DNA from: Muribaculum gordoncarteri
Lineage (GTDB): Bacteria; Bacteroidota; Bacteroidia; Bacteroidales; Muribaculaceae
Length of the DNA stretch: 64,000 nucleotides
NCBI RefSeq assembly: GCF_004803695.1
Contig: NZ_CP039393.1
Coordinates: 1,364,001-1,428,000 of the forward strand
Reading direction: 5' to 3'
Of this stretch, positions 18,932-41,418 are shown piece by piece. Made by a program: the position numbers and the translations under genes. Positions within the stretch are counted from its first letter, which is position 1. Each line of letters begins with the position of its first letter. A model generated the notes under the pieces. That model saw only the letters and a list, made by a program, of their open reading frames with translations. It made no database searches and was not told where the DNA came from.

Positions 18932-18973
18932 GTTCGGAATTTGTGCGCGGTCAACCGAAGTGAGCTAACTTCG
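18932..18973 (+). promoter_or_regulatory. mob promoter with conjugation-regulon box
   Basis: GTTCGGAATTT at 18932-18942 is followed exactly 34 nt from its first base by TAACTTCG (18966-18973), a TAnnTTTG-like -7 box with one mismatch. The same box and distance occur before traA and on both strands of the 41.3-41.4 kb divergent region. No TTTG -33 element is present, which suggests an activator-dependent promoter. The leader to mobA would be about 177 nt and contains the oriT hairpins. Confidence 0.55.
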
Positions 18974-19120
18974 CCGCGCGAAGCGAGGTCGGGAGTGCAT
19001 CAGGGCACTCGTGCCAAAGGTGCAGAATTTGTTAAGCAAGTTGTACTTTTCCCCGGATAAAACGGAGTTTTACCGAAGAAAAGTAACTTGCCACCCTGTC
19101 GGGCGGAGAAAATCAGCTCG
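18945..19120. other. oriT: Candidate origin of transfer (oriT) with nested hairpins
   Basis: This non-coding stretch directly upstream of the relaxosome genes holds three strong hairpins. The first has GCGCGG/CCGCGC and CGAAGT/ACTTCG arms (18945-18979). The second is GAGTGC/GCACTC (18993-19010). The third is a large nested one: GCAAGTTGTACTTTTC (19036-19051) with GAAAAGTAACTTGC (19078-19091), enclosing GGATAAAAC/GTTTTACC (19055-19074). Relaxase genes in Bacteroides elements normally lie just downstream of oriT. The nick site itself cannot be assigned from sequence alone. Confidence 0.55.
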
Positions 19121-19150
19121 CAACTCGCCGATTTTTAATCACTGGAAAAT

Positions 19151-19549
19151 ATGGAAAAGAGAACCAACAGAATAGAGATTCTATTTACCGACACCGAACT
19201 TGAACGGCTCAAAGTCCGCTCAAAGGAATTCAGGAGCATAAGCTCGTATATCCGTGCCGCACTTGTGGAGTTTTCCGACAAGGACGCGAAAGACCGTATG
19301 CAAGCCGTGGAAGAGATGGCCTCGCTCTGCCGGAGATTCAAGGACGAACTTGGCTGGGCCGGCGGCAATCTCAACCAGGCAATGAAACGCGCCAACGAAC
19401 TTTCCGTAGCCGGATTGTTGAGCGAGACATATTATAAAGAGGTACTGATACCTTCCATAGATGGCTTGAAGAAGACTATGGATAAAATCATAGCCGAACA
19501 CTCCGATGTAGTAAGCAAGATAATACGCAGTGTACTGAAGAACGGATAA
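19151..19549 (+). CDS. mobA: MobA/MobC-type relaxosome accessory protein
   Basis: A 132-residue protein starting MEKRTNRIEILFTDTELERL, a ribbon-helix-helix N-terminus followed by the mobilisation-protein motif RSISSYIRAALVEFS and a long helical C-terminus with GWAGGNLNQAMKRANE, the conserved core of MobC-like relaxosome proteins. It probably binds oriT next to the nick site and recruits the relaxase. It lies directly after the oriT hairpins and 100 bp before the relaxase gene, the standard order. In Bacteroides conjugative transposons this gene is usually called mobA. Confidence 0.85.
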   Translation: MEKRTNRIEILFTDTELERLKVRSKEFRSISSYIRAALVEFSDKDAKDRMQAVEEMASLCRRFKDELGWAGGNLNQAMKRANELSVAGLLSETYYKEVLIPSIDGLKKTMDKIIAEHSDVVSKIIRSVLKNG

Positions 19550-19649
19550 TCCGAACATCTGATGCAACTATAACCGAATTATCATATAGCCCCGGTTCCT
19601 TATACTCATATAATCCCAAACCGTGATTTTATCTTAATCATATATTCAC

Positions 19650-21209
19650 ATGATAGCGACAATACTTCCTTCAAGCACCTGCTTCCATGCAGTCGGATAT
19701 AATGAACGCAAGGTAGCCAAAGGCTCGGCACATCTGCTGGAAATGAAAAATTTTGATGCGGTCGAAATGTTGGGACACCATACCCCCGACGACCTCGTCG
19801 CCTATCTTGAAAATTACTCTTCCAAAAATCCGAGAATCAAGAAAGCGCAGTTCCACATGGCGTTTTCATGCCGGGGACACGAAAAGACGGAACAGGAACT
19901 TCTGGACTTCGCCCATGAATATCTCCGGGAGATGGGATATGGAGAAGAAGGACAGCTCCTGCTGGTTTACGGACATACCGATACTGACAACACACATATA
20001 CATATAATAACATCGCGTGTGGCACCGGACGGTCGCAAGATAGACCATAACCATGAACGGGTAAGGTCGCAACGTGTGGTCGAGCGGTTGCTTGGAAACG
20101 ACATTAACGAGAAAGCACACAGGGATATGGAAGAAGCCTTGTCTTATAAATTCGCATCCATCACACAGTTCAAGGCTCTTATGAACTCGCTCGGTTATGA
20201 GTGTTACGACAATGAGGGAGTGGTATCCATAAAACGTGGCGGTGCCGTGTGTCTTAAAATACCGCTGGAGGAAATCAGCTCACATTACCGTTCAACGACA
20301 TTCGACCGCCAGCGCAGGAGACAGCTCCGCGCCATATTCGCCAAATACCGAGACCTGACCGCCAACAAGAAAGAACTCGCCGATGAACTGAAAAGGAAAT
20401 TCGGTATCGAGCTTGTGTTTTTCGGAAAGAAAGATTCTCCATACGGCTATATGATAATCGACCATAACAAGAAAGCTGTCATCAACGGAGGCAAGATATA
20501 TCCGATAAAGGAGCTGCTGGATTTTGCGACACCTGATGAACGGTTCGCAAGAATAGACTCACAAATCGACGCCCAGTTAGCAAATGATCCAAAAATCACC
20601 ATCGGCGAGCTTAACGACATACTGAGCCGCCAGTACAAAGCCTATGTGAAACAAGGGCAGATATGGCGAGGCAGAGACAGCCGTCCTCTCCGTTCCCATA
20701 TGTGGGAGGCTCTGAGACGCAACAACCGTATTCAATGGGTGGAGTCATTCGCTCCGGCAACGGAAGCGGAGCGGGACTTTCTCTGTTCGATCGGAAAGGT
20801 GACTGTGCCCCACATGGTGGAAATCAACGGGACAAGGACAACACAATACAATAATCGGCTGTCAGATCTGAGAAGCATATTTGACAGCAGCACAGGTTAT
20901 ATACACCGTCAGACACTCCGCAGTGCAGGATTTACAATCCGGGATATTGAGGGAGAAATGTATGCCTTTGACATGAAAGCCCGCGTCCTTATAAATCTTG
21001 AAAACGAGGGCTTCGATATAAGACGGCTCCAGTTTGTCAAGAATCCCGTCGAGGACAAAAAACAAAACGCGGCCGTCAGACGAAAGCCCGGTTCCGGAAT
21101 AAGGAAGCCGCATGACGTGGAGTCAGGTCAAGGCCAGAACAGGGAATGGGAAGTAGGCTACAAAGGGGACTATGACAGGATAGATGATGAGTCCTCGATA
21201 AAACGATAG
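19650..21209 (+). CDS. mobB: Relaxase (MobB, MOB_P-like)
   Basis: A 519-residue relaxase. The likely catalytic tyrosine is Tyr17 in AVGYNERKVAKGSA. The metal-binding three-histidine motif is GHTDTDNTHIHII with His109, His116 and His118. The C-terminal half is basic and not assigned. It cuts oriT and pilots the single strand into the recipient, working with the accessory protein encoded upstream and the coupling ATPase encoded at 35946. The start at 19650 follows an AT-rich gap. The 3' end is followed by a copy of a 19-bp repeat that reappears before traA, with two accessory genes between. Confidence 0.92.
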   Translation: MIATILPSSTCFHAVGYNERKVAKGSAHLLEMKNFDAVEMLGHHTPDDLVAYLENYSSKNPRIKKAQFHMAFSCRGHEKTEQELLDFAHEYLREMGYGEEGQLLLVYGHTDTDNTHIHIITSRVAPDGRKIDHNHERVRSQRVVERLLGNDINEKAHRDMEEALSYKFASITQFKALMNSLGYECYDNEGVVSIKRGGAVCLKIPLEEISSHYRSTTFDRQRRRQLRAIFAKYRDLTANKKELADELKRKFGIELVFFGKKDSPYGYMIIDHNKKAVINGGKIYPIKELLDFATPDERFARIDSQIDAQLANDPKITIGELNDILSRQYKAYVKQGQIWRGRDSRPLRSHMWEALRRNNRIQWVESFAPATEAERDFLCSIGKVTVPHMVEINGTRTTQYNNRLSDLRSIFDSSTGYIHRQTLRSAGFTIRDIEGEMYAFDMKARVLINLENEGFDIRRLQFVKNPVEDKKQNAAVRRKPGSGIRKPHDVESGQGQNREWEVGYKGDYDRIDDESSIKR

Positions 21210-22567: not shown

Positions 22568-22609
22568 GTTCGGAATTTCGGGTTTAGCAATCGGCCCATG
22601 ATAATTTTG
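22568..22609 (+). promoter_or_regulatory. tra operon promoter with conjugation-regulon box
   Basis: GTTCGGAATTT at 22568-22578, TTTAGCAATC at 22583-22592, and the -7 box TAATTTTG at 22602-22609, starting exactly 34 nt after the box start. The 28-nt leader runs to the traA ATG at 22638. The 41313-41354 promoter shares the box, the TTTAGCAATC element, the -7 box and all spacings, so the two operons are very likely co-regulated. Confidence 0.65.
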
Positions 22610-22637: not shown

Positions 22638-23336
22638 ATGGAATCAACCTGTATAATCACATTCGCCAATCAGAAAGGCGGAGTCGGCAAGACAACGCTG
22701 TGCGCCCTTTTCGCAAGCTACCTTGTGTCAAGGGGGCACAGCGTGACCGTGTTCGACACCGATCCGCAGCAGTCCATCGTCAAGAAACGCACAGCGGACA
22801 CCGCCACCTATGCAGGAGTGCCGCTGCCTTATAACATATATCCTTTCAGCATGAGCAACGAGCCGGCTCTTATCGCGCTGATCGAGAACCTGCACAACTC
22901 AGCCGCCGTGGACTTCGCTCTGTTTGACTCGGCAGGCAGTCTCAACGACCAGGCGTTGCTGGCACTTTTCGCCAATACGGATTATTTGCTGACTCCGTTC
23001 CACTATGACAATCTGACCGTACCCTCCACCGCTATATTTGTCGCCATGATAGTCGAATTGAGACGAAGCATCGGAAATGCCATGAAAACGGTACACTATG
23101 TAATACCCAATCTTGAAGAACAGGGTGTCGGCACCAAAGAGGAAAAGGAGTTATGGAAGCTCGTGAACAAGAAGCTGAGCGAACACGTGCGTATAGCACC
23201 GACCGTTTATAAACGCCAGACACTACGCCGTTTCAGCACAATCTCCGGCATGGACGACCAGATGCTCGTAGTTTCACCGGCCTTCGACCATATTTACAAT
23301 GACATATTCGGCATACCAAATACAGAAGAAGAATGA
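22638..23336 (+). CDS. traA: ParA-family ATPase, TraA of CTnDOT-type elements
   Basis: A 232-residue ParA/MinD-type ATPase with the deviant Walker A FANQKGGVGKTTLCALFASY near the N-terminus, the FDTDPQQS motif, and the FALFDSAGS motif of Walker A'. The first gene of CTnDOT-type tra operons encodes this kind of protein; it may position the transfer apparatus or the element, but its role in conjugation is not settled. It follows the tra promoter directly, and its stop overlaps the next start (ATGA), so it is coupled to the DUF3408 gene. Confidence 0.88.
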   Translation: MESTCIITFANQKGGVGKTTLCALFASYLVSRGHSVTVFDTDPQQSIVKKRTADTATYAGVPLPYNIYPFSMSNEPALIALIENLHNSAAVDFALFDSAGSLNDQALLALFANTDYLLTPFHYDNLTVPSTAIFVAMIVELRRSIGNAMKTVHYVIPNLEEQGVGTKEEKELWKLVNKKLSEHVRIAPTVYKRQTLRRFSTISGMDDQMLVVSPAFDHIYNDIFGIPNTEEE

Positions 23337-23707
23337 ACCAGGACACCCCATACCCCAAACTGAACGACCTGCTCGGAGGACTCGGCAACCTTGTTCCCGG
23401 AGCGGAGACCATGCCACCGGCACCGGAACAGCATACCGTTCCCGAACCTGAGCCGTCGCCCGACAATGACGATGACTGGGAGCTTTTCAGAAAGAACCTT
23501 GCCCTGTATAATTTCAGGGAGAAAAAAGATGACCGCATGATATGCAAGCTCGACCGCGACCTTGCGGACTCCCTCGATGCCTGCGACATCGACCGCAAAT
23601 GCCGCTCCGATATTGTGAACGCAATAGTCAGGACTTTTGTAAACCGGTATCTTGACAGGCTTCGGCAATTCAGGAAAAACAACAGGTCATTACTCGGCAA
23701 CACATAA
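23333..23707 (+). CDS. DUF3408-type conjugation protein (TraB-like)
   Basis: A 124-residue protein with a Pro/Glu-rich, disordered N-terminus and a folded C-terminus reading KKDDRMICKLDRDLADSLDA, then IVNAIVRTFVNRYLDRLRQF. This is the ribbon-helix-helix-like DUF3408 core seen as the second tra gene in Bacteroides elements, always beside a ParA gene. It may act as the ParB-like or DNA-binding partner of TraA; that is inference from gene order. It overlaps traA by 4 bp. Confidence 0.75.
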   Translation: MNQDTPYPKLNDLLGGLGNLVPGAETMPPAPEQHTVPEPEPSPDNDDDWELFRKNLALYNFREKKDDRMICKLDRDLADSLDACDIDRKCRSDIVNAIVRTFVNRYLDRLRQFRKNNRSLLGNT

Positions 23708-23720: not shown

Positions 23721-24308
23721 ATGAGAACAATCAAATGGTCTTATGATATGCTCCGCACACTGCGTGAGATGTATCCGCACGACACGAATACACGGATAGC
23801 AGCAGCTATCGGTGTGGGTACGAGGTGTGTGGTGGCGAAAGCAGCCGAACTCGGACTTGAAAAGGAACGTGACATCAGACGCAAGGAAGCTGAGAGAATC
23901 CTGATGGAGAATTACCGCACTCATTCCCAGTCCGAACTGTCACGCCTGACAGGATTGAGTCTCCGCACCGTCAAACGCATGGCCGGACGTTTGGGACTGA
24001 AACGCGATGCCGATGATGCCTCACGGTTCATTTCCTCCAGACGCAAGGAAATAATACGTCGTGAGAGACTGCGCCTGAGGATAGGACTTGCCCCGATAAC
24101 CAATGTCAAGGTCACAGGCAACCGCCGACGAGCCATCTTACGCAACCGGCTCAAACAATACGGATATGTGGTCATGCGAGGCAATGACACCGTATTTTTC
24201 AGTCCTGACATGGCACGCTGTTCAAGACACGAGGACAGAGGCGCATCCCTCGGCCTTACTTTTCTCCCCTTGCCGCAACAACAATCATTCACAACAAAAA
24301 TAATCTGA
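23721..24308 (+). CDS. HTH-containing conjugation protein
   Basis: 195 residues from ATG 23721 (MRTIKWSYDMLRTLREMYPH), a start that avoids the long overlap given by earlier codons. Two HTH-like segments are visible: DTNTRIAAAIGVGTRCVVAK at about 20-40 and SQSELSRLTGLSLRTVKRMA at about 75-95. Strongly basic stretches follow (RRKEIIRRERLRLRI). It is probably DNA-binding. Its place, third in the tra operon between the DUF3408 gene and a short membrane protein gene, matches the TraC position, but I cannot confirm the family. Confidence 0.65.
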   Translation: MRTIKWSYDMLRTLREMYPHDTNTRIAAAIGVGTRCVVAKAAELGLEKERDIRRKEAERILMENYRTHSQSELSRLTGLSLRTVKRMAGRLGLKRDADDASRFISSRRKEIIRRERLRLRIGLAPITNVKVTGNRRRAILRNRLKQYGYVVMRGNDTVFFSPDMARCSRHEDRGASLGLTFLPLPQQQSFTTKII

Positions 24309-24313: not shown

Positions 24314-24679
24314 ATGTTCGGAACTATTTTTACCTGCCTGACAGCCGTACTCATATTATATTATGCAGTCCTTGTCTGTATGGATCTTTTCATAAAGCCT
24401 ACGGGAGCCGCCGATGAATCCGGCACACCCGATGAAGCTGAGATCGACATATCCGATGAAGCAAACTCATTCAAGGCAATCGAAATCAAGCGCGGTCAAC
24501 AGAGTGCCAAGAAGCCGGTCAAGGCTCCGGCCGAGAAACCGACCCTCTCCAAGCCGCTGATGACAAATTATCTTCCGGTTGAACAGCTTGCAAGAAAAGC
24601 CCGCAACATAACCAGTTCTGAAGATGCCTCCCTCGCCGGCCTCGGAGAAATCATCATCAAATGTGAATCCGCTGCTTGA
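24314..24679 (+). CDS. Single-span conjugation protein (TraD position)
   Basis: A 121-residue protein with an N-terminal membrane anchor (TIFTCLTAVLILYYAVLVCM, residues 4-23), an acidic then Lys/Pro-rich linker (KKPVKAPAEKP), and a C-terminal segment with NYLPVEQLARKARNI. It follows the HTH gene by 5 bp and is fourth in the tra operon. Its position before the TraE gene suggests the TraD-type protein of CTnDOT-like elements, with an unknown role in the inner membrane. Confidence 0.55.
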   Translation: MFGTIFTCLTAVLILYYAVLVCMDLFIKPTGAADESGTPDEAEIDISDEANSFKAIEIKRGQQSAKKPVKAPAEKPTLSKPLMTNYLPVEQLARKARNITSSEDASLAGLGEIIIKCESAA

Positions 24680-24843
24680 CATCAACTGACTTGCCGCTAA
24701 CCATATTCGTATAACCCGATACCTCTCTCTCCAACCGATGCCTTTATTGAACTAAGTTGTCTTTACTGCCCGACACTGCCTTTAACGCCCTGCATTGCCT
24801 TTAACGCCCGATAACCTTTTCAAGAACTTATCAATCAGCGTAT
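24680..24843 (+). other. Spacer before traE with short tandem repeat
   Basis: A 164-bp spacer inside the tra operon. TGCCTTTAACGCCC occurs at 24777-24790 and again at 24796-24809 (19-nt period), with weaker CTGCC matches before it. There is no hairpin with a T run and no clear promoter. It may be an RNA processing or translation-control region. Confidence 0.3.
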
Positions 24844-25200
24844 ATGCAGAAAATCAAATCAAAGTGTCAGCGTGCTATCTCACGCCTCGGCAACTCAGCC
24901 TTCGCCCGTAAGGGTATGCTTGCTATGGGCGCGGTGATGCTCACCGTGTCCGACATGATGGCCGCCAGCAAGGGTGCGGCAGGCTTCACCAAAGCCACAC
25001 AGGAGGTAAGCTCCTACCAGACCCCTGTCTCCAATCTCATGAAGGCGATCGCCGCAGTGATTGTCCTCGTGGGTGCCTTCAACGTCTATTTCAAGATGCA
25101 GAACGGCGACCAGGATGTCAAGAAGACCATCATGCTCACCATCGGCGGCTGTATCGCCTTCATCGCACTGAGCGAGGCTCTTCCGCTCTTCTTCAAGTAA
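24844..25200 (+). CDS. traE: TraE (DUF4134), pilin-like inner-membrane protein
   Basis: A 118-residue protein with an N-terminal hydrophobic leader containing MLAMGAVMLTVSDMMAASKG and two membrane segments (LMKAIAAVIVLVGAFNVYFK and IMLTIGGCIAFIALSEALPL). This small two-span layout, followed directly by TraF and TraG, corresponds to VirB2-like proteins in type IV secretion. DUF4134 proteins occupy this slot in Bacteroides elements. It is likely processed after the Ala-Ala before SKG. Confidence 0.85.
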   Translation: MQKIKSKCQRAISRLGNSAFARKGMLAMGAVMLTVSDMMAASKGAAGFTKATQEVSSYQTPVSNLMKAIAAVIVLVGAFNVYFKMQNGDQDVKKTIMLTIGGCIAFIALSEALPLFFK

Positions 25201-25222
25201 GCAACCGCAGATCCATACAGTC

Positions 25223-25510
25223 ATGGCGATATACAACGACGGCTATCCGGTTTACAAAGGGTTACAGAAACCATTGGAGTTCATGGGAATACGCGGACGT
25301 TTCCTGACATTGGCGGCTGCCGCCATAGGAGTGTCCTTCGTGGGGTTCATAGTGTTCTCCATAGCATTGGGAAAGCTCGCGGGGTTTATCGCCATGCTTG
25401 TAATGGCCGCCGCAGGGCTGGTGACAATATATGTCAAGCAGCGCGGCGGACTGCACAACAAGCGGAAAGACCGTGGAATCTTTATCTATCACAATTTATT
25501 CAAGCACTGA
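25223..25510 (+). CDS. traF: TraF (DUF4133), VirB3-like membrane protein
   Basis: 95 residues: NDGYPVYKGLQKPLEFMGIR, then two membrane segments (about 29-48 and 51-70), then a short basic tail (KQRGGLHNKRKDRG). The conserved YPVYKGLQKP start and the small two-span fold identify the DUF4133 (TraF) family, equivalent to VirB3. Its stop codon is immediately followed by the TraG ATG, so the two are tightly coupled, as in other systems where VirB3 works with VirB4. Confidence 0.85.
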   Translation: MAIYNDGYPVYKGLQKPLEFMGIRGRFLTLAAAAIGVSFVGFIVFSIALGKLAGFIAMLVMAAAGLVTIYVKQRGGLHNKRKDRGIFIYHNLFKH

Positions 25511-28345
25511 ATGGCAAAGGAAAACAAAAAAGTCTTCGACGGGATATACGCCCAGTTGGAGGAAACGGACGGTAATGTGGTGCTGTTCGACGCAAAGGGG
25601 GCCCCCTCTGTCATTTTTGAAATGACAAACCCTGTTCTCCGGCTGTGTACCGACTCGGAGCGGTACATGGTATTTCAGGACGTGCTGGCTAACATCGTCC
25701 AGACGCTCGGCGAGGGCTATGCCTTGCAGAAGCAGGACATATTCTGCCGCCAGCGTTACCACCGCGACGTGCCCGAAGACGCCGAGTTCCTGACCCGGAG
25801 TTATTTCAATTACTTCGAGGGCCGTGAGTTCACTGAAATCACAACCTATCTGATAGTGACACAGGAGGCGCAGCGCGGACAGTTCGTGCAATACGACCCC
25901 AAGAAATGGCTCGACTTCCATTCAAAGGTCGCCAAAGTTGACGACATCCTTACCGAGAAAGGGATAAGCCACCGCAAGCTGACAAAGCCGGAGGTCAACG
26001 AGTACCTGCACCGCTTCATGGCGTTCCATTTCCAGCACGGCCCATTCTCCATGACAAATTTCAAGGCTTCCGACGAATACCTGCGGACAGGCAGCCGCAT
26101 TATCCGCTCATATCCCCTTGTGGATATTGACGAAATAAATCTCCCCTCGGTAGTGAAGCCATATACCGAGATGAGTGTCAACGGTTATCCCGTGGCTACC
26201 GATGTGTTCTCATTTCTTGCCGAAGTGCCCCACGCCGACTGTGTGGTGTTCAATCAGGTGGTGCAGATACCGGGACAGCGGAAGCTGCTCAGAAAACTGC
26301 AAGGTAAGGCGAAACGTCACGGCTCCATGCCCGATCCGAGCAACAAGATAGCGAAAGCCGACATTGAGGAAGTTCTCAACATCCTCGCCGTTGACTCTTC
26401 CCTTCTTGTCAACACCAATTTCAACATCATCGTGAGCTGTCCTCCCGACAAGGTTACACCGGTCACATCGTTTCTTGAGACCAAACTCTACGAGTGCGGC
26501 ATAATGCCGTCACGAACAGCCTACAACCAGCTGGAACTGTTCATCAACTCCTTTCCGGGCTGTGCCTACGGCTTCAATCCCGACTATGACCTGTTCCTCA
26601 CACTGTCGGACTCGGCACTGTGCCTTTTCTTCAAGGAACACCTCAAAGGGTGCGAGGACACGCCTCTCACCACATTCTACACCGACCGTCAGGGACTCCC
26701 GGTGTGCATAGACATAACCGGCAAGGAGGGCAAGGTGAAGATGACCGACAACGCCAACTTCTTCTGCATCGGGCCAAGCGGCAGCGGCAAATCCTTCCAC
26801 ATGAACAGTGTGGTAAGGCAGCTGTTGGAGCAGAACACCGATGTCGTGATGGTCGATACCGGCGACTCCTACGAGGGTATTTGCGGCTATTTCGGCGGCA
26901 CATATATCTCATACTCAAAGGAGAAGCCTATCTCGATGAACCCGTTTAAGGTGACACGCGAGGAATATGAGCAGAACTTCGGGGAGAAGAAGAATTTTCT
27001 CAAATCGCTGATATTCCTGATTTTCAAAGGCAACGAGGCTCCTTCAAAAATTGAGGATATGCTTGTCAACCAGGCCATAGTGGAATATTACGAGGCATAT
27101 TTCAATCCGTTCACCTCATTTTCCGACACGGAGCGCGAGGGCTTGCGCCAGAAATTGCTTGTGGCAGCCAAGATGGAGGACGACTACGAGAAGTTCGCCA
27201 CCGATATGCGTGACATCGAGGAACAGATAAACGCCCCTGAACCGGAGACCAAGACAACCGTCCGCGCCCTCATACTCCCTTCGGAGGAACGGCGCAACAA
27301 GATTATCCGCCAGTGCCGGGCACTGAGGGCCATGATTGTTGACCGTGCCACTACCGAGGCGGAGAAAGAGAAAGCTGCCTCAAAGATTGAGGTATATAAG
27401 AAAGAGCTGCACGAGACCTCGATGCTGATGAAGATTGACAAGCAGATAGACCACATGGAGGAGCAGAAACGCCGCCTCAAAGTGCCGTCGCTCTCCTTCA
27501 ACACCTACTACGAGTTCGCCCTTGAACGGATACCGCAGATCACATCGCTGGAGAAGATACATTTCGACATACGAGACTTTGCCGCTATCCTCAAACAGTT
27601 CTACCGTGGTGGAGAGCTGGAGGTGACGCTCAACTCCGACCTTGACACCAATCTTTTCGACGAGCGGTTCATTGTCTTTGAGATTGACAAGATAAAGGAT
27701 GACCCCGTGCTTTTCCCGATCATCGTGCTGATAATCATGGACGTGTTTCTTCAGAAAATGCGTATCAAGAAAGGACGCAAGGCCCTGATAATCGAGGAGG
27801 CATGGAAAGCGATAGCCTCGCCCACTATGGCGGAGTACATAAAGTTCCTGTATAAGACCGTCCGCAAGTTCCACGGCATAGCCGGTGTGGTGACACAGGA
27901 GCTTAACGATGTGATCGACTCTCCCATCGTTAAGGAGGCGATAATCAACAACTCCGATGTGAAGATATTGCTCGACCAGTCGAAATTCAAGGACAGATAC
28001 AGCGACATAGCGGCCATACTCGGACTGACGCCTATTCAGAAGCAGCAGATATTCACAGTCAACGCCCTCAATAACAAGGAGGGACGCAACTACTTCAAAG
28101 AGGTGTGGATATGCCGCGGCCAGAACTCCGATGTGTATGGCGTCGAGGAGCCGCCGGAATGTTACTGGGCCTACACCACCGAGCGGGCCGAGAAAGAGGC
28201 TCTGAAAATATATCTCCGTCATTACGGCACCATGCAGGAGGCGATAACCAACATCGAGGCCGACCGCAAGAGAGCCGGAATATCCAATTATCTTGATTTT
28301 GCCCGTAAGGTCAACCAACAACAGAAAGTAATGTCGCTATGGTAA
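25511..28345 (+). CDS. traG: TraG, VirB4-like conjugation ATPase
   Basis: A 944-residue ATPase that powers the type IV secretion channel. Walker A is GPSGSGKSFH starting at residue 421; Walker B is KALIIEEAWKA with Glu762-Glu763. The N-terminal domain has the TraG motif NPVLRLCTDSERYMVFQD. Between the two nucleotide-binding motifs, about residues 540-665 form a long charged insert rich in Glu/Lys (for example AEKEKAASKIEVYKKELHET, MEEQKRRLKVP) that looks like coiled coil and makes this protein longer than the simple VirB4 core. The gene abuts traF and overlaps the next gene by 7 bp. Confidence 0.93.
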   Translation: MAKENKKVFDGIYAQLEETDGNVVLFDAKGAPSVIFEMTNPVLRLCTDSERYMVFQDVLANIVQTLGEGYALQKQDIFCRQRYHRDVPEDAEFLTRSYFNYFEGREFTEITTYLIVTQEAQRGQFVQYDPKKWLDFHSKVAKVDDILTEKGISHRKLTKPEVNEYLHRFMAFHFQHGPFSMTNFKASDEYLRTGSRIIRSYPLVDIDEINLPSVVKPYTEMSVNGYPVATDVFSFLAEVPHADCVVFNQVVQIPGQRKLLRKLQGKAKRHGSMPDPSNKIAKADIEEVLNILAVDSSLLVNTNFNIIVSCPPDKVTPVTSFLETKLYECGIMPSRTAYNQLELFINSFPGCAYGFNPDYDLFLTLSDSALCLFFKEHLKGCEDTPLTTFYTDRQGLPVCIDITGKEGKVKMTDNANFFCIGPSGSGKSFHMNSVVRQLLEQNTDVVMVDTGDSYEGICGYFGGTYISYSKEKPISMNPFKVTREEYEQNFGEKKNFLKSLIFLIFKGNEAPSKIEDMLVNQAIVEYYEAYFNPFTSFSDTEREGLRQKLLVAAKMEDDYEKFATDMRDIEEQINAPEPETKTTVRALILPSEERRNKIIRQCRALRAMIVDRATTEAEKEKAASKIEVYKKELHETSMLMKIDKQIDHMEEQKRRLKVPSLSFNTYYEFALERIPQITSLEKIHFDIRDFAAILKQFYRGGELEVTLNSDLDTNLFDERFIVFEIDKIKDDPVLFPIIVLIIMDVFLQKMRIKKGRKALIIEEAWKAIASPTMAEYIKFLYKTVRKFHGIAGVVTQELNDVIDSPIVKEAIINNSDVKILLDQSKFKDRYSDIAAILGLTPIQKQQIFTVNALNNKEGRNYFKEVWICRGQNSDVYGVEEPPECYWAYTTERAEKEALKIYLRHYGTMQEAITNIEADRKRAGISNYLDFARKVNQQQKVMSLW

Positions 28346-32273: not shown

Positions 32274-32283
32274 AACCTGACTT

Positions 32284-32781: not shown

Positions 32782-33967
32782 TTTCAGACAACCGAAGTAT
32801 ATCTTCCCTGCGGTGATTTTCGTGCCGCTGTGTGCGCTGATATATTTCGCAATGGAGACTTTCGGCGGCGGTGGCGATGACCCTCAGGCCGTGGCTACAG
32901 ACCGTATCAACTCCACTCTGCCGGAGGCCAACGCCGAGGCTCCCGGTGACAAGATGTTCGAGATGTCACGCCGCTTCGGTGACGAAGACGCCTTTACCGC
33001 CGTGGGCGCGCTCGGCGAGGAACAGGAGGAACGCGAGGCTCTTGAACACGGCTACACCGAGGACGAGCTGAACCGTCTCGACGCGGCCGAGGCCGAGCGT
33101 ATCCGTCAGCAGCAGGAGCTGGAGGAACTGGAGCGTTCCCTTGCTGAATCGCGCCGGCATATCAACTCATACGCTTACGGTGACGGCTATAATCCTGCCG
33201 ACTATGAACCTGCCGTTGACCCCCGGAGCGAATATGCACGCGACCTTGAGGCGATACAGCAGCGCAGCTACGAGCGTCAGAAAGCTATCGAGGCCGGACT
33301 TGGCATAGGACAGCCCGACCCGGAGGAAGCCATGCGCAAGCACCGGGCCGACTCCATAGCAAGGGCGCGGGAGATAGAGCGTGAGAAGAACCGCCCATTG
33401 CTGGTGCTTAAATCACGGGAGACAAATGCCGACAAATTCAATACAGTGGGTAGTTCGGCCGATAATGTCGATGCTCCGCTTATCCGTGCCATGATCGACA
33501 AGACAACAAAGGCGCATGAGGGCACGAGGCTACGCTTCAAGTTGCTCGACGATGTGACAATACATGATGTGAGGCTTGCCAAAGGCACATATCTGTACGG
33601 CACCGTCACCGGCTTCGGCCAACAGCGTGTCCGCGCCGCCATCACTTCAATTCTTGTAGGCGGAAAGTTCCTGAAAGTGAATCTTTCGGTGTTCGACAAC
33701 GACGGCATGGAGGGCTTCTATGTCCCGGAGTCCGCTTTCCGCGATTTTATGAAAGAGGCGGGTGCCAGCACAGTGCAGCAGAATATCAGCTTTGAGTCCG
33801 AGAGCGGCTACGGCTCCGGAATATCCGGCGAGGCCATCGCTTTGCAGGCTCTCCAGAATATGTATAACTCCGCGACTTCCGCTGTGTCGGCCAATATCCG
33901 CAAGAACAAGGCGAAAATCAAATACAACACCATCGTTTACCTTATCAATTCAGACGAAGCATATTAA
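32768..33967 (+). CDS. traM: TraM, VirB10-like core protein
   Basis: A 399-residue protein with a short cytoplasmic N-terminus, one membrane segment (IFPAVIFVPLCALIYFAMET), a long charged, disordered periplasmic linker (residues 60-220, with the Glu-rich run DAAEAERIRQQQELEELERS) and a C-terminal beta-barrel domain with LLDDVTIHDVRLAKGTYLYG and GGKFLKVNLSVFDNDGMEGF. This is the TraM architecture of Bacteroides elements, equivalent to VirB10, spanning from inner to outer membrane. It overlaps traL and precedes traN by 21 bp. Confidence 0.9.
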   Translation: MKKINFRQPKYIFPAVIFVPLCALIYFAMETFGGGGDDPQAVATDRINSTLPEANAEAPGDKMFEMSRRFGDEDAFTAVGALGEEQEEREALEHGYTEDELNRLDAAEAERIRQQQELEELERSLAESRRHINSYAYGDGYNPADYEPAVDPRSEYARDLEAIQQRSYERQKAIEAGLGIGQPDPEEAMRKHRADSIARAREIEREKNRPLLVLKSRETNADKFNTVGSSADNVDAPLIRAMIDKTTKAHEGTRLRFKLLDDVTIHDVRLAKGTYLYGTVTGFGQQRVRAAITSILVGGKFLKVNLSVFDNDGMEGFYVPESAFRDFMKEAGASTVQQNISFESESGYGSGISGEAIALQALQNMYNSATSAVSANIRKNKAKIKYNTIVYLINSDEAY

Positions 33968-33988
33968 ACGGTAATCAACCAACCCATT

Positions 33989-34861
33989 ATGAAAGATAAA
34001 ATAATTGCAGCTACCCTCGCGCTATGCGCCGTCGCAATCCCGGCGACCGCCAAAGAGAAGATCCTTGTCAACTCGGAAGTGACAACACATATCGTCATGC
34101 CTGAGAATATCAAGATGGTGGACTTATCCACCACAAAGATTATCGGCAACCAGTGTGCCGACAACATCGTGCGTATCAAGCCGTTCATCGAGGCTGACTC
34201 CGTACTTACCCACTACCGGGAGGGTGAGCTGATGGGTACTCTCACACTCATCGGCGAGCGACATCTGGCACAGTACGATGTGGTATATACCGCCGCCCCT
34301 TCGCGTGCCGCCTCTATCCACCGTGTGCCATACGCCGGTTTGGACTCCTACATCAATCCGGAGGTATCCATGCCTCAGTCGGAAATGGCACGTTACGCCT
34401 GGGCCGTATATGGCAGCGGTCGAAAATACAATCAGGTGGTGTCTAAAGCCAACGGCATGAAGGCGATTGTTAACAACATCTATTCGATAGGCGACTATTT
34501 CTTCATCGACTATTCCCTTCAGAACAGCACCAAGATAGCATACGACATCGCCGAGGTGCGTGTGAAGCTCACAGACAAGAAGGAGGTCAAGGCCACAAAC
34601 TCTCAGACGGTGGAACTGTCGCCTGTTTATTCGCTGAACCTTGCAAAGAAGTTCAAGAAGAACTACCGCAACGTGCTTGTGCTCGATAAGCTGACTTTCC
34701 CGGACGAGAAGGTGCTCCGCATCGAAATATCGGAGAACCAGATAAGCGGACGTGTCATAACCCTTACCGTGGAGTATGACGATATTCTCAACGCCGACGG
34801 CTTCGACTCCGACATACTCAAAAATCTGCCGTTCAACTATTCACCCCATATCTACAAATAA
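33989..34861 (+). CDS. traN: TraN (DUF4138), VirB9-like outer core protein
   Basis: A 290-residue secreted protein with a signal peptide (IIAATLALCAVAIPATA) and a beta-rich body: EKILVNSEVTTHIVMPENIK at the start, QNSTKIAYDIAEVRVKLTDK in the middle, and LRIEISENQISGRVITLTVE near the end. These motifs define DUF4138 (TraN), the partner of TraM in the periplasmic/outer-membrane core. It lies in the expected order after traM and 10 bp before traO. Confidence 0.88.
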   Translation: MKDKIIAATLALCAVAIPATAKEKILVNSEVTTHIVMPENIKMVDLSTTKIIGNQCADNIVRIKPFIEADSVLTHYREGELMGTLTLIGERHLAQYDVVYTAAPSRAASIHRVPYAGLDSYINPEVSMPQSEMARYAWAVYGSGRKYNQVVSKANGMKAIVNNIYSIGDYFFIDYSLQNSTKIAYDIAEVRVKLTDKKEVKATNSQTVELSPVYSLNLAKKFKKNYRNVLVLDKLTFPDEKVLRIEISENQISGRVITLTVEYDDILNADGFDSDILKNLPFNYSPHIYK

Positions 34862-34870
34862 TCCGGCACT

Positions 34871-35341
34871 ATGAAAAAGATACTGTTCGCAATCATCTGT
34901 GCAGTGGCTTCTATCACGGCCACCGCTCAGGAAAACAAGATAGCCGTCAACGCCGGCTTCCTGTTCCCGTCAACTCTCAACGCCACCGTTGGCTACGAGA
35001 GGTCGTTCACCTACGGCAACGCCGTGGAGGTCTATGGAGAGATTGGCAATCACTGGAAATCGGGCGAGGGTCAGTTCTGGAAAGGCTATTACTGGGACGG
35101 CGGTATAATCTACAAACACCGTCTGCACCGTTACAAGAACGGCAGCTTCCGTGTCCGCTTCGGCCCTCAGTTCGGAGCGGTGGAGAGAAAGTTTTTCATC
35201 GGTATCGAGGGGGGCTTTGAATACAACTATGTGTTTCAGAATGGGTGCGAGTTCTCGATCATACAGAAGAATAATGTAAATTTCCTGCATGGCGACACGT
35301 TCCGCAACGGCCTCATGCTCGGATTCAAGATACCGTTCTGA
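34871..35341 (+). CDS. traO: TraO-like outer-membrane conjugation protein
   Basis: A 156-residue protein with a signal peptide (MKKILFAIICAVASITATAQ) and alternating hydrophobic/aromatic strands (VGYERSFTYGNAVEVYGEIG, GGIIYKHRLHRYKNGSFRVR, FGPQFGAVERKFFIGIEGGF) ending in a C-terminal Phe, as in small outer-membrane beta-barrels and the CTnDOT TraO family. It is the last gene of this tra run; the next two genes are on the other strand. Confidence 0.8.
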   Translation: MKKILFAIICAVASITATAQENKIAVNAGFLFPSTLNATVGYERSFTYGNAVEVYGEIGNHWKSGEGQFWKGYYWDGGIIYKHRLHRYKNGSFRVRFGPQFGAVERKFFIGIEGGFEYNYVFQNGCEFSIIQKNNVNFLHGDTFRNGLMLGFKIPF

Positions 35342-35343
35342 AA

Positions 35344-35616
35344 TCAGCCGAACAATTCCGAATGGGAGCCGAGACGCACAAGATTGATCTCATCTGTGTC
35401 CGGGTCAAACCATATCAAAAGGAAATCACCTTCGATATGGCACTCCATGTGGCCGGCATAATTCCCCGTCAGAGGGTGAGGACGGTTTTCTTCCGGTATC
35501 GGCTCCTCATTTTGTAGCAACTCCATAATCCTGAACAGTTTTTCAACCTTTTTCGGATTATTGCGGAAACGCTTGTAGTCTTTCTTGTATTGACTGCCGG
35601 GTTTGAGTTTTTTCAT
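35344..35616 (-). CDS. YafQ/RelE-family toxin
   Basis: A 90-residue, basic type II toxin of the YafQ family: KKLKPGSQYKKDYKRFRNNP at the start, then NRPHPLTGNYAGHMECHIEG, FLLIWFDPDTDEINLVRLGS and a final HSELFG. The conserved catalytic His and Asp/Phe region (HMECHIEGDFLLIW, HSELF) is present, so it is likely an active ribosome-dependent mRNase. It overlaps the antitoxin gene by 4 bp. The pair sits antisense between traO and the coupling ATPase and may stabilise the element. Confidence 0.88.
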   Translation of the reverse strand: MKKLKPGSQYKKDYKRFRNNPKKVEKLFRIMELLQNEEPIPEENRPHPLTGNYAGHMECHIEGDFLLIWFDPDTDEINLVRLGSHSELFG

Positions 35617-35873
35617 AATCCCATGGATTTTTCCATCGCCTCAATCGAGGAAAGATTCAGGGCAGGCTCGTTGCGGAGACGTCCGCTTGCCGCCTCTTCC
35701 ATTGCCTCAAGTGTAACAGCATTAGGCTCGTGGTAGGCGGCATCAAGTAGAACAGTCTCAACATAATTGTTAAGGCTGCGGTTCTGCCGTTTTGCAAGCT
35801 GCTTCAATCTTTCAATGAGTTCCACTGAAAGGCGGAAGCTCTGGTTCTTTTTCAGTGCTATTTCCATATCCAT
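35613..35873 (-). CDS. RHH antitoxin paired with the YafQ-type toxin
   Basis: An 86-residue protein with a ribbon-helix-helix N-terminus (QSFRLSVELIERLKQLAKRQ, NRSLNNYVETVLLDAAY) and a C-terminal toxin-binding tail (LNLSSIEAMEKSMGL). It is first in the two-gene operon, as usual for antitoxins. The promoter on the minus strand has TAACTTTG (plus coordinates 35888-35895) and TTG (35916-35918) 20 nt apart, leaving a leader of about 14 nt. Autorepression by the RHH domain is expected. Confidence 0.85.
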   Translation of the reverse strand: MDMEIALKKNQSFRLSVELIERLKQLAKRQNRSLNNYVETVLLDAAYHEPNAVTLEAMEEAASGRLRNEPALNLSSIEAMEKSMGL

Positions 35874-35945
35874 ATTATTTTATACTGCAAAGTTAGTGTA
35901 AATGTATTACAAAAACAATAATTCTACCATATAAGTTCCCAGACT

Positions 35946-38255
35946 ATGGCTTTTGAAGAAACAAAGGAACAGCAACAGATGTATAACTACTTCCGTAGCT
36001 GTATCTACATATTCCTGATTATCGAGATTGTGATGAACCTGCCTATCACGTCTGACAACCGCGTGACGCAGTTCATACTCGACCTGCTCGGACGCTTCAA
36101 GATGTTCAACTCCGTGGCCGGGTGCAAGGTTGCCGAACTTGTCTGCATCTGTGTGGTATGTATCGGCACCAAAGCGAAAAAGGCGTTGAAGTTCAATCTG
36201 AAGACTATGGTGGTATATCCGGTGCTTGCAGGTCTCACTCTCGTAGGACTGTGCTTCATCTTCCATCACGGCACATGGGGTATGTCGCTCTTCGGCTTCC
36301 CTGCAAGCCGTGTCCTGTATGCCTTCTGCTCGGTGGTCGGCACCATGCTCGTTCACCAGGGACTTGACGGTATCGCCAAGTATTACAACCACAAGGTCGG
36401 CGAGGACAGGTTTAATTTTGAGAATGAATCTTTTGAACAGTCCCGTCAGGAGGTCAATACCCCTTATTCAGTGAACATCCCGATGATATTCTACTGGAAA
36501 AAGCGTATGCACAACGGCTACATCAACATTATCAATCCGTTCCGTGGTACGATTGTGCTGGGTACTCCCGGCTCCGGCAAGTCTTTCGGCATAATAGATC
36601 CGTTCATAAGGCAGCACGCACGAAAGGGCTTCGCCATGATGGTATATGACTATAAGTTCCCGACGCTTGCCAAGACGCTTTTCTATCAGTATTGCAAGAA
36701 TTTGCACTACGGCAATCTGCCGAATGGGTGTGGTTTCCGCATAGTCAATTTTACCGATGTGGAGTATTCAAACCGTATCAACCCCATCCAGCGTAAATAC
36801 ATTCCCGACCTCGCGGCGGCTTCGGAGACGGCGGCCACGCTTCTTGCCTCGCTCAACAAGGGCGGTGGCGAGAAAAAGGGCGGCTCGGAGGCTTTCTTCT
36901 CCAACTCGGCAGAGAATTTCCTCGCGGCGATCATCTATTTCTTTGTGAATTTCCACCCGACAGGTTTTCTGAAAGGGAAAAAACTGAAACGCTATATATC
37001 GCACGAGGGCAAGAAATTGGAGCTTGTGATACGCAACTGGGACGATTTCAACGCTCTGGACGAGAACGGCGAGGTCATGCTTGACTTCGTGAACGAGAAC
37101 GGGCGCGACGTATCCACCGACGAGGACAAGATGTTCGTTGACCTTAACGGCTTCTCCTATATCGACCGCATGGGTAAGCTGATATTGATTGACCGCTGCT
37201 GGTATGAGGACGAGAACGGAAACGAGGTTGAGCCGGACACTATCACAGGTGAGTTTTCGGATATGCCCCATGTGCTGTCGTTCCTCGGACGCAAGTATTC
37301 GGAGGTGTTCGACATTCTGATGATGGACGATAAGATAGCCTCGCTGATGGCCCCCTTCAAGTCCGCATACGAGAACAAAGCCAACGACCAGCTTGAAGGT
37401 ATGGTGGGTACTCTCCGCGTAAATGCGGCACGGCTTGTATCCCCTGAAGCCTATTGGGTGTTCACCGGCGATGATTTTGACTTGAAGATTTCCGACCCGG
37501 TGAGTCCGAGCTATCTTGTGATTGCCAACGACCCCGAAAAGGAACAGGTCATCGGCTCTCTGAACGCTCTTGTGCTTAACCGTCTGATAACCCGTGTCAA
37601 TTCCAAAGGCAATATACCTGTTAGTATCATCGTTGACGAGCTTCCCACTCTGTACTTCCACAAGATTGACCGACTGATCGGCACGGCGCGAAGCAACAAG
37701 GTTGCCGTGACTCTCGGTTTTCAGGAGCTTCCGCAGTTGGAGGCTGACTACGGCAAGGTGGGTATGCAGAAGATTATCACGACCTGCGGCAACATATTCA
37801 TGGGTGCGGCACGAAACAAGGAGACTCTTGAATGGGCGCAGAATGATGTGTTCGGCAAGGCGAAGCAGACATCGACATCAATCACCATAAACGACCAGAA
37901 AATCTCAACCTCCATTTCCGAGAAGATGGACTATCTCGTTCCGGCGGCAAAAATCGCAGACATGGCTACGGGCTGGCTTGCGGGTCAGGCGGCACGTGAC
38001 TTCACGGCCACCGATGAAAAGATGCTGTCGCATTTTGACATCGAGGACTCCGAGGAGTTCAAGACAACCAAGTATTTCTGCAAGACGCACTTCGATATGG
38101 CACGTATCAAGGAGGAGGAATCCAACTATGTGGAGCTGCCTAAAATTTATTCTTTCGACAGTGAGCGAGAGAAGGAGATTATGCTCAACCGCAATTTCAA
38201 GCGTGTCAACCAGGAGGTGGCCGATATGGTGAAGGAACTTCTCGGCACTGAATAA
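35946..38255 (+). CDS. mobC: VirD4-type coupling ATPase (MobC)
   Basis: A 769-residue type IV coupling protein. The N-terminus has several membrane segments (about 18-34, 80-105, 115-135), and the cytoplasmic ATPase has Walker A GTPGSGKSFG at 206-213 and Walker B VSIIVDELPTL with Asp564-Glu565. The segment RTGTARSNKVAVTL-like IGTARSNKVAVTLGFQELPQ matches the sensor region of the family. It connects the relaxase-DNA complex to the transfer channel. In CTnDOT the equivalent gene stands beside mobA/mobB; here it follows traO, on the far side of the toxin-antitoxin pair. Confidence 0.92.
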   Translation: MAFEETKEQQQMYNYFRSCIYIFLIIEIVMNLPITSDNRVTQFILDLLGRFKMFNSVAGCKVAELVCICVVCIGTKAKKALKFNLKTMVVYPVLAGLTLVGLCFIFHHGTWGMSLFGFPASRVLYAFCSVVGTMLVHQGLDGIAKYYNHKVGEDRFNFENESFEQSRQEVNTPYSVNIPMIFYWKKRMHNGYINIINPFRGTIVLGTPGSGKSFGIIDPFIRQHARKGFAMMVYDYKFPTLAKTLFYQYCKNLHYGNLPNGCGFRIVNFTDVEYSNRINPIQRKYIPDLAAASETAATLLASLNKGGGEKKGGSEAFFSNSAENFLAAIIYFFVNFHPTGFLKGKKLKRYISHEGKKLELVIRNWDDFNALDENGEVMLDFVNENGRDVSTDEDKMFVDLNGFSYIDRMGKLILIDRCWYEDENGNEVEPDTITGEFSDMPHVLSFLGRKYSEVFDILMMDDKIASLMAPFKSAYENKANDQLEGMVGTLRVNAARLVSPEAYWVFTGDDFDLKISDPVSPSYLVIANDPEKEQVIGSLNALVLNRLITRVNSKGNIPVSIIVDELPTLYFHKIDRLIGTARSNKVAVTLGFQELPQLEADYGKVGMQKIITTCGNIFMGAARNKETLEWAQNDVFGKAKQTSTSITINDQKISTSISEKMDYLVPAAKIADMATGWLAGQAARDFTATDEKMLSHFDIEDSEEFKTTKYFCKTHFDMARIKEEESNYVELPKIYSFDSEREKEIMLNRNFKRVNQEVADMVKELLGTE

Positions 38256-38268
38256 TAAATTACTTATC

Positions 38269-38988
38269 ATGGAAACTACCGCCAAAATATCCGTTCCCCT
38301 CTCGCTCCGCTTATCCGGAAGTGCGTTGAAGATTATCGCCATTCTCTCGATGGTGGCCGACCATTGCGCCTACTTCCTTATGGAGCCTGACACTCCGATG
38401 TACGACTGTCTGCGATGTATCGGCAGGATAGCGTTCCCTGTGTTCGCTTTCCTTGTTGCCGAGGGGTTCGCACATAGCCGCGACCGTATGAGATATTTTC
38501 TGATACTGTTGCTTGCCGGTGCAGTCAGTGAATTGCCGTGGTATCTGCTCAACGGAGCGGACGGCACGCATAATGTCATGTTCACTCTCTCCCTCGGAGT
38601 TGTGGCACTCGCCATATTCGACCGTATGTGTGAACATGGGCCGCTGTCGTTCATCGGTATTTCAGGTATCGCTGTTCTGGCATGGTGGCTCGGAACGGAT
38701 TATGACTGGCGCGGAGTTCTGATGATAGCGGTGTTCTACATTCTCCGGCACCAGACTATGCGTCCGTGGCTGGAGCGTTCATCGACAAATTTTCCCTCTC
38801 AGGCTATTCTTCAGATTATATTCACGTTTCCTTTGATGGCTCACTACGGCATAGCCGGTGCGTTGCTCGCCTCCGCAATAATCTTCCTGTATGACGGCAC
38901 CCGTGGCTTCATACGAAGCAAATCGGCCAAATACAGCTTATATGCCATATACCCCGTACATCTGATGTTGATTTGGTTATGTGGTTGA
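38269..38988 (+). CDS. traX: TraX-family membrane protein
   Basis: A 239-residue polytopic protein with about seven membrane segments. The N-terminal SGSALKIIAILSMVADHCAY and the following RCIGRIAFPVFAFLVAEGFA are the TraX family signature; the histidine in MVADHCAY and the arginine in GRIAFP are present. TraX of plasmid F acetylates the pilin N-terminus, so this may modify the pilin-like TraE protein; that link is inference. It starts 13 bp after the coupling ATPase stop and is followed by a strong terminator. Confidence 0.8.
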   Translation: METTAKISVPLSLRLSGSALKIIAILSMVADHCAYFLMEPDTPMYDCLRCIGRIAFPVFAFLVAEGFAHSRDRMRYFLILLLAGAVSELPWYLLNGADGTHNVMFTLSLGVVALAIFDRMCEHGPLSFIGISGIAVLAWWLGTDYDWRGVLMIAVFYILRHQTMRPWLERSSTNFPSQAILQIIFTFPLMAHYGIAGALLASAIIFLYDGTRGFIRSKSAKYSLYAIYPVHLMLIWLCG

Positions 38989-40651: not shown

Positions 40652-40718
40652 ACTACAAAGTTAATAATTTTAATCGAGCCATGCTATATTTTTATTGAGA
40701 GTCAACGCTTTTAGCACA

Positions 40719-41339
40719 TTATAGCATTTTCAATACGCTTATCACAGCACGGATATAGCCCGGATCTTCAGCGTAGCCAATCTTTTTCAGCCACAGCAGA
40801 TAATTTCCTCCCTTATATCGGTACTGTACTTTTGTGTAGTAGGCTTTGACTGATTCAGTCCAATGGTTGAACTCGTAGTATTTACCTGTGCGTGGATTTG
40901 TAAGCCCGAAAAGGTTGTGCTTGTTGCGGCATACCGGAGATTTGAACCAGCCTGTTTCAAGTATTGCCTGTGCCAAAACTATTTTCGGATATTTTATGCC
41001 GTTCTTTTCAATCTCGGCAATCAGATTTGGAATGGTCAGATCCGGGAGTCCGGAACTGACCGGTGCTTGCCGGAAATGTGACTTTGATGTGGTGACAATG
41101 CTTGCAGATAGCGTTTGTGGCATATTTTTTACGCCAATAACCGTTTCCGGGATTGATGATATTTGAGGCAATATACTATCACTCTTATTATCAGTGTTAT
41201 AAACTTCTCTATTGTGCATTTCAACCGTCACGGGAGAATCTTTTGTAACGGTGTAAAACTGGGCTGCGGCATACTGTGAACAGAAAACTGCACAGGCAAT
41301 CGCAACAAAAATGTTCGGAATTTCAAATTTAGCAATCAT
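40719..41339 (-). CDS. Secreted glucosaminidase (peptidoglycan hydrolase)
   Basis: A 206-residue exported protein with signal peptide IPNIFVAIACAVFCSQYAAA, a disordered linker, and a C-terminal glucosaminidase (FlgJ/LytG-type) domain: YPKIVLAQAILETGWFKSPV with the catalytic Glu128, and NKHNLFGLTNPRTGKYYEFN. It probably opens the cell wall locally for the transfer channel, like VirB1-type enzymes. Its promoter shares the conjugation-regulon geometry (box 41418-41408 read on the minus strand, -7 TAAATTTG at 41384-41377), so it is switched on with the transfer genes. Confidence 0.87.
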   Translation of the reverse strand: MIAKFEIPNIFVAIACAVFCSQYAAAQFYTVTKDSPVTVEMHNREVYNTDNKSDSILPQISSIPETVIGVKNMPQTLSASIVTTSKSHFRQAPVSSGLPDLTIPNLIAEIEKNGIKYPKIVLAQAILETGWFKSPVCRNKHNLFGLTNPRTGKYYEFNHWTESVKAYYTKVQYRYKGGNYLLWLKKIGYAEDPGYIRAVISVLKML

Positions 41340-41354
41340 GTGGGGATAATTTTG
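41313..41354 (+). promoter_or_regulatory. Plus-strand conjugation-regulon promoter (accessory operon)
   Basis: GTTCGGAATTT at 41313-41323, TTTAGCAATC at 41328-41337 and TAATTTTG at 41347-41354, identical in element order and spacing to the traA promoter. The box lies inside the first codons of the divergent glucosaminidase gene. The leader to the ATG at 41404 is 49 nt. Confidence 0.65.
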
Positions 41355-41376
41355 AGGTCGACAAGCGGTTACGCCG

Positions 41377-41418
41377 CAAATTTATAACCTCTAATTCATT
41401 GACATGGAAATTCCGAAC
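41377..41418 (-). promoter_or_regulatory. Minus-strand conjugation-regulon promoter (glucosaminidase)
   Basis: Read on the minus strand, GTTCGGAATTT starts at 41418 and the -7 box TAAATTTG starts at 41384, again exactly 34 nt later. The box lies inside codons 2-5 of the divergent DUF4099 gene, so each promoter's box is embedded in the start of the opposite gene. The leader to the ATG at 41339 is 37 nt. The TTTAGCAATC element is absent here. Confidence 0.6.

Follow-up and report, generated by a model that had tools for sequence, protein, structure and literature searches.

A co-diverging promoter box over the transfer genes of a Muribaculum gordoncarteri conjugative element, best read as marking an activator regulon

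The stretch of DNA considered here (64,000 nucleotides of the Muribaculum gordoncarteri contig NZ_CP039393.1, hereafter the window) carries a conjugative element with mob genes, a tra operon, a peptidoglycan hydrolase gene of the glucosaminidase type and an accessory operon headed by DUF4099 (its operon structure being inferred from gene order), as well as the tetracycline-resistance gene tet(Q), and a tyrosine integrase lies just past the end of the window (L054:5079-6203). In front of the mob genes, the tra operon, the accessory operon and the hydrolase gene stands an exact copy of the box GTTCGGAATTT, followed at a fixed distance by a -7 box (Table 1). An initial annotation, made from the letters alone, had reported four perfect copies with a -7 box 34 nucleotides (nt) after the first base of the box, and both the positions and the spacing proved exact in four out of four. 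The box marks the mob, tra, DUF4099 accessory operon and glucosaminidase promoters.

Table 1. Promoter boxes and genes of the window element (positions in the window; E, expectation value; pLDDT, predicted local distance difference test)
Feature	Position	Strand	Detail
Box, mob promoter	18932-18942	+	exact GTTCGGAATTT
-7 box, mob promoter, TAACTTCG	18966-18973	+	34 nt from box start
MobA, NikA-like relaxosome protein	19151-19549	+	Pfam NikA-like, E 1.8e-4, under gathering score
MobB-type relaxase	19650-21209	+	NF041325, E 1.8e-30, under curated cut-off
Box, tra promoter	22568-22578	+	exact GTTCGGAATTT
-7 box, tra promoter, TAATTTTG	22602-22609	+	
TraA, ParA-like ATPase, tra operon gene 1	22638-23336	+	
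TraB, small protein	23333-23707	+	ribbon-helix-helix-like C-terminus by eye
Tandem helix-turn-helix protein, tra operon gene 3, proposed activator	23721-24308	+	AlphaFold2 pLDDT 87.7
Remaining tra operon: DUF4134, DUF4133, TraG, TraJ, TraM, TraN, coupling protein, others	24314-38988	+	
Glucosaminidase (peptidoglycan hydrolase)	40719-41339	-	Pfam Glucosaminidase, E 1.3e-18
Box, DUF4099 accessory operon promoter	41313-41323	+	exact GTTCGGAATTT
-7 box, accessory operon promoter, TAATTTTG	41347-41354	+	
-7 box, hydrolase promoter, TAAATTTG	41377-41384	-	
Box, hydrolase promoter	41408-41418	-	exact GTTCGGAATTT
Accessory operon: DUF4099/DUF3945, MutS domain I, ArdC, Toprim primase-like, topoisomerase C-terminal repeat, others	41404-48079	+	

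Four exact copies of GTTCGGAATTT in the window compare with 0.11 expected, a number that none of 100 dinucleotide shuffles reached, and matches with up to two mismatches are at chance level (25 versus 25.2 expected). With TAANTTNG placed at exactly +34, all four copies fit with zero mismatches, 0.20 sites being expected when up to three mismatches are allowed, and again no shuffle out of 100 reached four. The whole genome (3.43 Mb) holds eight exact copies of the box and none of the pattern read backwards. A -7 box at exactly +34 is present in five of the eight, i.e. the four window sites and one site in a mobilizable element (L003), and the other three (L001, L002 and L004) have no -7 box and lie inside open reading frames (ORFs) resembling host genes. 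Two more GTGTCCRAAKTK places in the same genome are unconvincing, one having TATTTTTG at 35 and the other no -7 box.

The -7 box itself is ordinary, reading TAAnTTTG in three of the four window sites (the mob site being TAACTTCG). The primary-sigma consensus has been reported as TAnnTTTG at -7 with TTTG near -33 (PMC7366714). The statement in the initial annotation that no TTTG is present in the -33 region does not hold for the mob site, where GTTCGGAATTTG has TTTG 22 nt before the -7 box. Among 60 distinct box promoters, two have TTTG at spacer 18-22 and six at 16-25; at other TAnnTTTG sites upstream of ORFs it occurs at 16-25 in eight out of 46, mostly at spacer 19-20. An alignment of 57 distinct sites with the 34-nt distance has an invariant TGT (positions -1 to 2) and mostly A/T at -6 to -4; the differences between families fall in positions 3-8, the spacer is little conserved, and the third T of the -7 TTT is a T in 41 of the 57 (collected with TAnnTTnG). 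Because family patterns and the demand for a -7 box were used in gathering the sites, the GT and the -7 letters are partly so by construction; the T at position -1 was not fixed in this way. The -7 box varies little while the upstream box changes between families. Placing the first T of the -7 box at about -12 would make the upstream box span about -46 to -35, and because of its distance to the -7 box it would thus overlap the -33 region.

Related elements were compared on the basis of 23 non-identical homologues, picked by eye, of the tandem helix-turn-helix (HTH) protein encoded by the third tra gene, 22 of which have a readable tra promoter. Left out were redundant loci with an identical HTH protein, weak DUF4099 matches (identity of at most 27%), the pairs L063/L089 and L079/L110 (tra promoter off the contig or unread) and the distant homologue L080. 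Since most of these elements were found through the HTH gene, its co-presence with the box is partly by construction. The boxes of related Bacteroidales elements fall into the families GTTCGGAATTTC, GTCCAAAGTK, GTCYAAACAG and GTTGTGCATTTC. Of the 22 tra promoters 20 have a box, its distance to the -7 box being 34 nt except for L111 and L112 (33 nt), and of the 20 readable mob promoters (those of L111 and L064 being unreadable) 18 have one, with a distance of 33 nt for L097 and for L102. The mob boxes of L103 and L161 are unlike the respective tra boxes in their second half (GTCCAAACGTAA, GTCCAAATGTAA), these sites having been found by looser matching or by eye. Boxes inside one element resemble one another, and the spacing of 34 (rarely 33) nt and the single orientation are kept while the letters change by element family. 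Scanning 21 loci, each with its own core, returned 15 mob sites (those of L105-L108 being near-identical) and three stray matches in addition to the 20 tra sites by which the cores were defined, compared to a single match with the reversed core.

A plain search for two of the cores gives the same picture in ten genomes that were picked for carrying such elements or the mobilizable element. The 12-mer GTTCGGAATTTC occurs at 26 places in nine of them, 17 with a -7 box at exactly 34 nt, and GTTGTGCATTTC at 16 places in seven, 13 with such a box. Of these 42 places together, 30 have TAnnTTnG, all at 34 and none at 31-33 or 35-37, and every one of the 30 belongs to mob, tra, DUF4099, the hydrolase or a mobilizable element (assigned by the following ORF or by matching an already read mob site); the other 12 (nine for GTTCGGAATTTC and three for GTTGTGCATTTC) have no -7 box at 31-37. 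The outcome that the initial annotation had named as telling against its proposal, a box equally frequent away from promoters, is thus not what these genomes show. A search with TraA in 198 genomes of the order yielded mostly short ParA-type matches, and one of viral contigs found no relative.

The divergent promoter between DUF4099 and the hydrolase allows a comparison in which the HTH gene was not used. The DUF4099 protein was searched in 148 genomes, 13 of which have matches, and all nine loci with at least 72% identity have a box on both arms (one per strand) at 34 nt, the paired boxes differing by element (GTTCGGAATTTC, GTCCRAA-type or GTYGTSYATTTC-type). Loci at 43-44% identity (L040 and L041) have none of the known box families; by eye, they have TTTG about 22 nt before TACCTTTG. 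An HTH homologue is found in four of the five genomes with boxed DUF4099 loci (G000, G249, G261 and G279, with none in G025) and in neither of the two genomes with unboxed loci (G216 and G242). The DUF4099 of G249 is 89% identical to that of the window, yet its box is of type II, as in the tra operon of the same element, compared to 82% identity for the type I locus L038, which indicates that the box goes with the element and not with the adjacent gene, an argument that rests on pairwise identities because type I and type II are not clearly separated in the DUF4099 tree. A second element in the same chromosome (at about 523-561 kb) has its own four sites, all type II boxes at 34 nt: GTCCAAAGTTAC (tra), GTCCAAAGTTAA (mob), GTCCAAAGTGTT (DUF4099) and GTCCGAATCTTT (hydrolase).

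In the window, the two facing promoters (41313-41418) overlap, each box lying within the first codons of the opposite gene, and box-derived EIPN residues open both the DUF4099 and the hydrolase protein. The 5' ends deduced for the two transcripts would be mutually antisense.

The fifth -7-linked box of the genome precedes DUF3853 in an element beside carB (L003/L218), which has Phage_integrase, Relaxase and NikA-like domains and a DUF3987 gene, and no transfer pore genes as judged by eye from ORF lists only. A search with DUF3853 gave 38 matches in 27 of 198 genomes; 30 of the 38 were scanned as loci, and three of these have a box at 34 nt (L122 exactly, L123 and L124 with one mismatch). These three are the closest among those scanned with readable upstream DNA, L125 stopping at the contig edge. 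A fourth copy, exact and at 34 nt, is found in L186 of G331, a genome that also carries a type I element, and the copy in G279, a genome with a type III element, reads GTTCTGAATTTC. The box type of the window is therefore shared with a family of mobilizable elements at the same distance.

As for the protein that may read the box, the tandem-HTH product has 195 residues, of which 8-44 and 49-91 each form a three-helix HTH domain in a confident AlphaFold2 prediction (the score in Table 1 is the mean). No Pfam or NCBIfam model matches it above the curated cut-off, and no protein of solved structure is a convincing relative; its best profile match over four members scanned is PHROG 323, a D5-like phage regulator (E 4e-6 to 1e-10). 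Sigma-70 region 4 is matched at an E of at most 0.01 by eight of 19 HTH members, the window's own protein not being among them, and other HTH models match equally well or better (HTH_23, best E 1.3e-8). Homologues occur in 26 of 397 genomes of the family (some weak) and in seven of 395 of the class (two strong); there are 23 loci in the genome collection and two in the viral collection, and the L065 protein as query gave no match in the plasmid collection. The 23 named loci comprise 10 Muribaculaceae (eight labelled by name and two by a genus that we take to belong there), six Porphyromonadaceae, three Bacteroidales, two Bacteroides sp., one Palleniella and one Oscillospiraceae, many of them being metagenome bins.

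Taken together, these are real, conserved and co-diverging promoter boxes over transfer genes, and they are best read as an activator regulon. It seems probable that the box is the operator of an element-encoded activator that would switch on all transfer functions, the likeliest reader being the tandem-HTH protein. Such an activator, sitting at about -46 to -35 in front of a primary-sigma -7 box that is otherwise normal (TAAnTTTG), would compensate for a missing -33 contact in the way of class II activators, and the rigid distance and single orientation indeed argue for an activator that touches RNA polymerase. The idea of an activator site adjoining the polymerase, put forward in the initial annotation, is in this respect supported as a deduction from spacing and orientation, and its proposal that mob, tra, the accessory operon and the hydrolase belong to one regulon gains support from the same constancy and from the family-wise change of letters. 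Activator specificity would differ between element families, each with a box to match, by which two elements in one chromosome would run private regulons. Being encoded in the tra operon, the tandem-HTH protein would amplify its own synthesis (i.e. positive feedback), and mobilizable elements, with the same kind of box before their DUF3853-primase-mob cluster, would be switched on by the activator of a helper.

A more far-reaching version is offered tentatively, as something we rate at clearly less than even: that of a new family of conjugation master activators, in which a single tandem-HTH protein would replace the -33 contact through a sigma-region-4-like second domain, fast diversification would keep the four-promoter codes of co-resident elements private, and mobilizable elements would copy the code in order to eavesdrop.

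Several observations weigh against assigning the box to the tandem-HTH protein. L093 and L098 have the HTH protein and no recognisable box at tra or mob; a search for another common motif in these two (type IV) gave no clear result, and the distant homologue L080, which is outside the 22, has no such box either. Conversely, no matching HTH gene is present in the assemblies of G025 (two boxed DUF4099 loci) and G261 (one type I locus), where the partner may be unassembled because the contigs are 7.6-21 kb. The mob and tra sites of G331 lie on one contig and its DUF4099 and hydrolase sites on another. The match between hitch-hikers and helpers is incomplete as well, since the conjugative element of G279 is of type III and an HTH gene is lacking in G300, which carries the mobilizable element. 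Furthermore, over 19 elements the distance between boxes tracks the distance between recognition helices of the second HTH domain (HTH2; rho 0.36, reached in 0 of 1000 permutations), but equally that between TraB proteins (rho 0.41, 3 of 1000) and to some extent that between MobA proteins (rho 0.27, 13 of 1000), and not that of TraA (0.04, 307 of 1000), MobB (0.13, 131 of 1000) or the recognition helix of the first domain (0.11, 186 of 1000). Column-wise mutual information does not separate the proteins, its top columns being in TraA. Covariation does not single out the tandem-HTH protein, TraB being equally good, and the choice of the former therefore leans on the asymmetry of the site, the fold and its presence. 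As an observation apart, the tra promoters of L093 and L098 share GGTAAAAGAGTCCG immediately before the -7 box.

The same regulon could also be read by TraB, which is ribbon-helix-helix-like and made from the same operon with the ParA-like TraA; this is unlikely, though it fares best among the alternatives. Besides its distance tracking that of the box as well as HTH2 does, the putative strand residues of TraB go by box class (CKLD/CRLD in most of I and III, CMID in II and YFID in IIb). The sites read by ribbon-helix-helix dimers are generally symmetric or repeated, whereas here there is a single asymmetric box in a fixed orientation, and TraB has no Pfam match and a weak predicted structure (AlphaFold2 pLDDT of only 60.5).

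Slightly less probable again is that the box binds a repressor or autorepressor that would block the -33 region and shut the transfer genes. The site overlaps the position of RNA polymerase, and operon-encoded DNA-binding proteins are often autorepressors. Moreover, the missing -33 TTTG is weak evidence for an activator, because 38 of the 46 other TAnnTTTG sites lack it too, leaving the need for one unproven. A repressor would, however, tolerate more positions, whereas spacing and orientation are rigid in all box families, and it is this rigidity that favours activation.

The initial annotation had proposed a homologue of the CTnDOT excision proteins (Xis2c, Xis2d or Exc) as the binder, which now looks very improbable. 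A Xis-like HTH_17 gene does lie near the integrase (L054:4101-4376), but five ParA loci that we take to be CTnDOT-like (L006-L009 and L011) have no TAnnTTTG within 250 nt upstream of the ParA Walker motif, and no tandem-HTH gene follows ParA there as judged by eye. The tandem-HTH gene thus seems the better candidate, even though the CTnDOT excision proteins have been reported to raise tra expression (PMC5729914, and Keeton 2013 by its title). Equally hard to credit is an alternative sigma factor with the box as its -35-like element. In spite of the fixed spacing to a second element and the GGAA in the type I box, the -7 box is an ordinary primary-sigma box that stays nearly constant while the upstream box changes, and boxes of types II and IIb have little in common with those of type I.

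Among known systems, the nearest parallel is that of AcaCD/SetCD (IncA/C plasmids and SXT/R391 elements, with SGI1 and other mobilizable islands), whose promoters, according to PMC4542580, have no -35 box or a poor one and an operator in its place (class II), with operators in mobilizable islands as well. The likeness lies in one element-encoded activator (here a proposed one) for many transfer promoters, in an operator overlapping the -35/-33 region, in operators that diverged between related systems and in the occurrence of the same operators in mobilizable islands. The activators there are heteromeric and FlhCD-like, whereas the candidate here is a tandem-HTH protein at Bacteroidota TAnnTTTG promoters, known from sequence; the candidate has no FlhC/FlhD match in Pfam or NCBIfam, a search that was not extended to the whole element. 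The box system may therefore be said to work like the AcaCD/SetCD kind, without a claim to membership in it. With CTnDOT (RteABC, Xis2c/Xis2d/Exc and RteR) the window element shares being a Bacteroidota conjugative element with TraG/TraJ/TraM/TraN-type transfer genes and tet(Q), whereas the box and the tandem-HTH gene are unseen at the presumably CTnDOT-like ParA loci, CTnDOT itself not having been compared. Inspection by eye of the 20 kb that follow the window showed no rteA/rteB-like ORFs, no profile search for RteA/RteB having been made there. NBU1-type mobilizable elements respond to CTnDOT, their excision depending on its main regulator (PMC5704250), and are a parallel to the mobilizable element described here, the difference being that a shared operator sequence is visible here. 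PHROG 323 is similar in sequence over both HTH domains and differs in context, the match covering only part of its 319-position profile. No description of the box or of the tandem-HTH protein was found among the titles and abstract starts listed (subscription papers being mostly outside the search), and the literature matches listed for the box letters are all on unrelated subjects.

Some further features of the region may be recorded. Directly left of the mob promoter are about fifteen 12-bp tandem repeats (18059-18276), and further left (16826-17465) lie what we take, from their translations, to be a GH3-like ORF (without a Pfam match) and a GH97-like N-terminal ORF, both abruptly ended, which may represent the left edge of the element or a rearrangement. 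A YafQ-type toxin and a HicB-like partner are encoded on the minus strand within the tra region (35344-35873). Between ParB and tet(Q) (52740-59156) are genes for an OmpR-type response regulator, a histidine kinase, a Porph_ging protein and a carboxypeptidase-regulatory-like protein. Beyond the window, the integrase, an XRE-like gene and the Xis-like HTH_17 gene form a phage-switch-like arrangement (L054:2342-6203), in which no exact box was found. A similar ORF (with RSYCVRE and TLRLWSASALVSLH) is present at three places: 59547-59984 of the window, L054:38-427 and L219:3737-4300.

If the proposed regulon is true, it would explain how little-studied gut elements, one of them with tet(Q), turn on their transfer, and the sharing of the box with a hitch-hiking element points to a possible common transfer switch. 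The box would then serve as a DNA tag for finding elements, and their hitch-hikers, that answer to the same switch, and the families would offer a natural set of matched regulator/operator pairs for studying the drift of DNA specificity. Two elements with different boxes in one chromosome, as in M. gordoncarteri, make cross-talk between such regulons directly testable.

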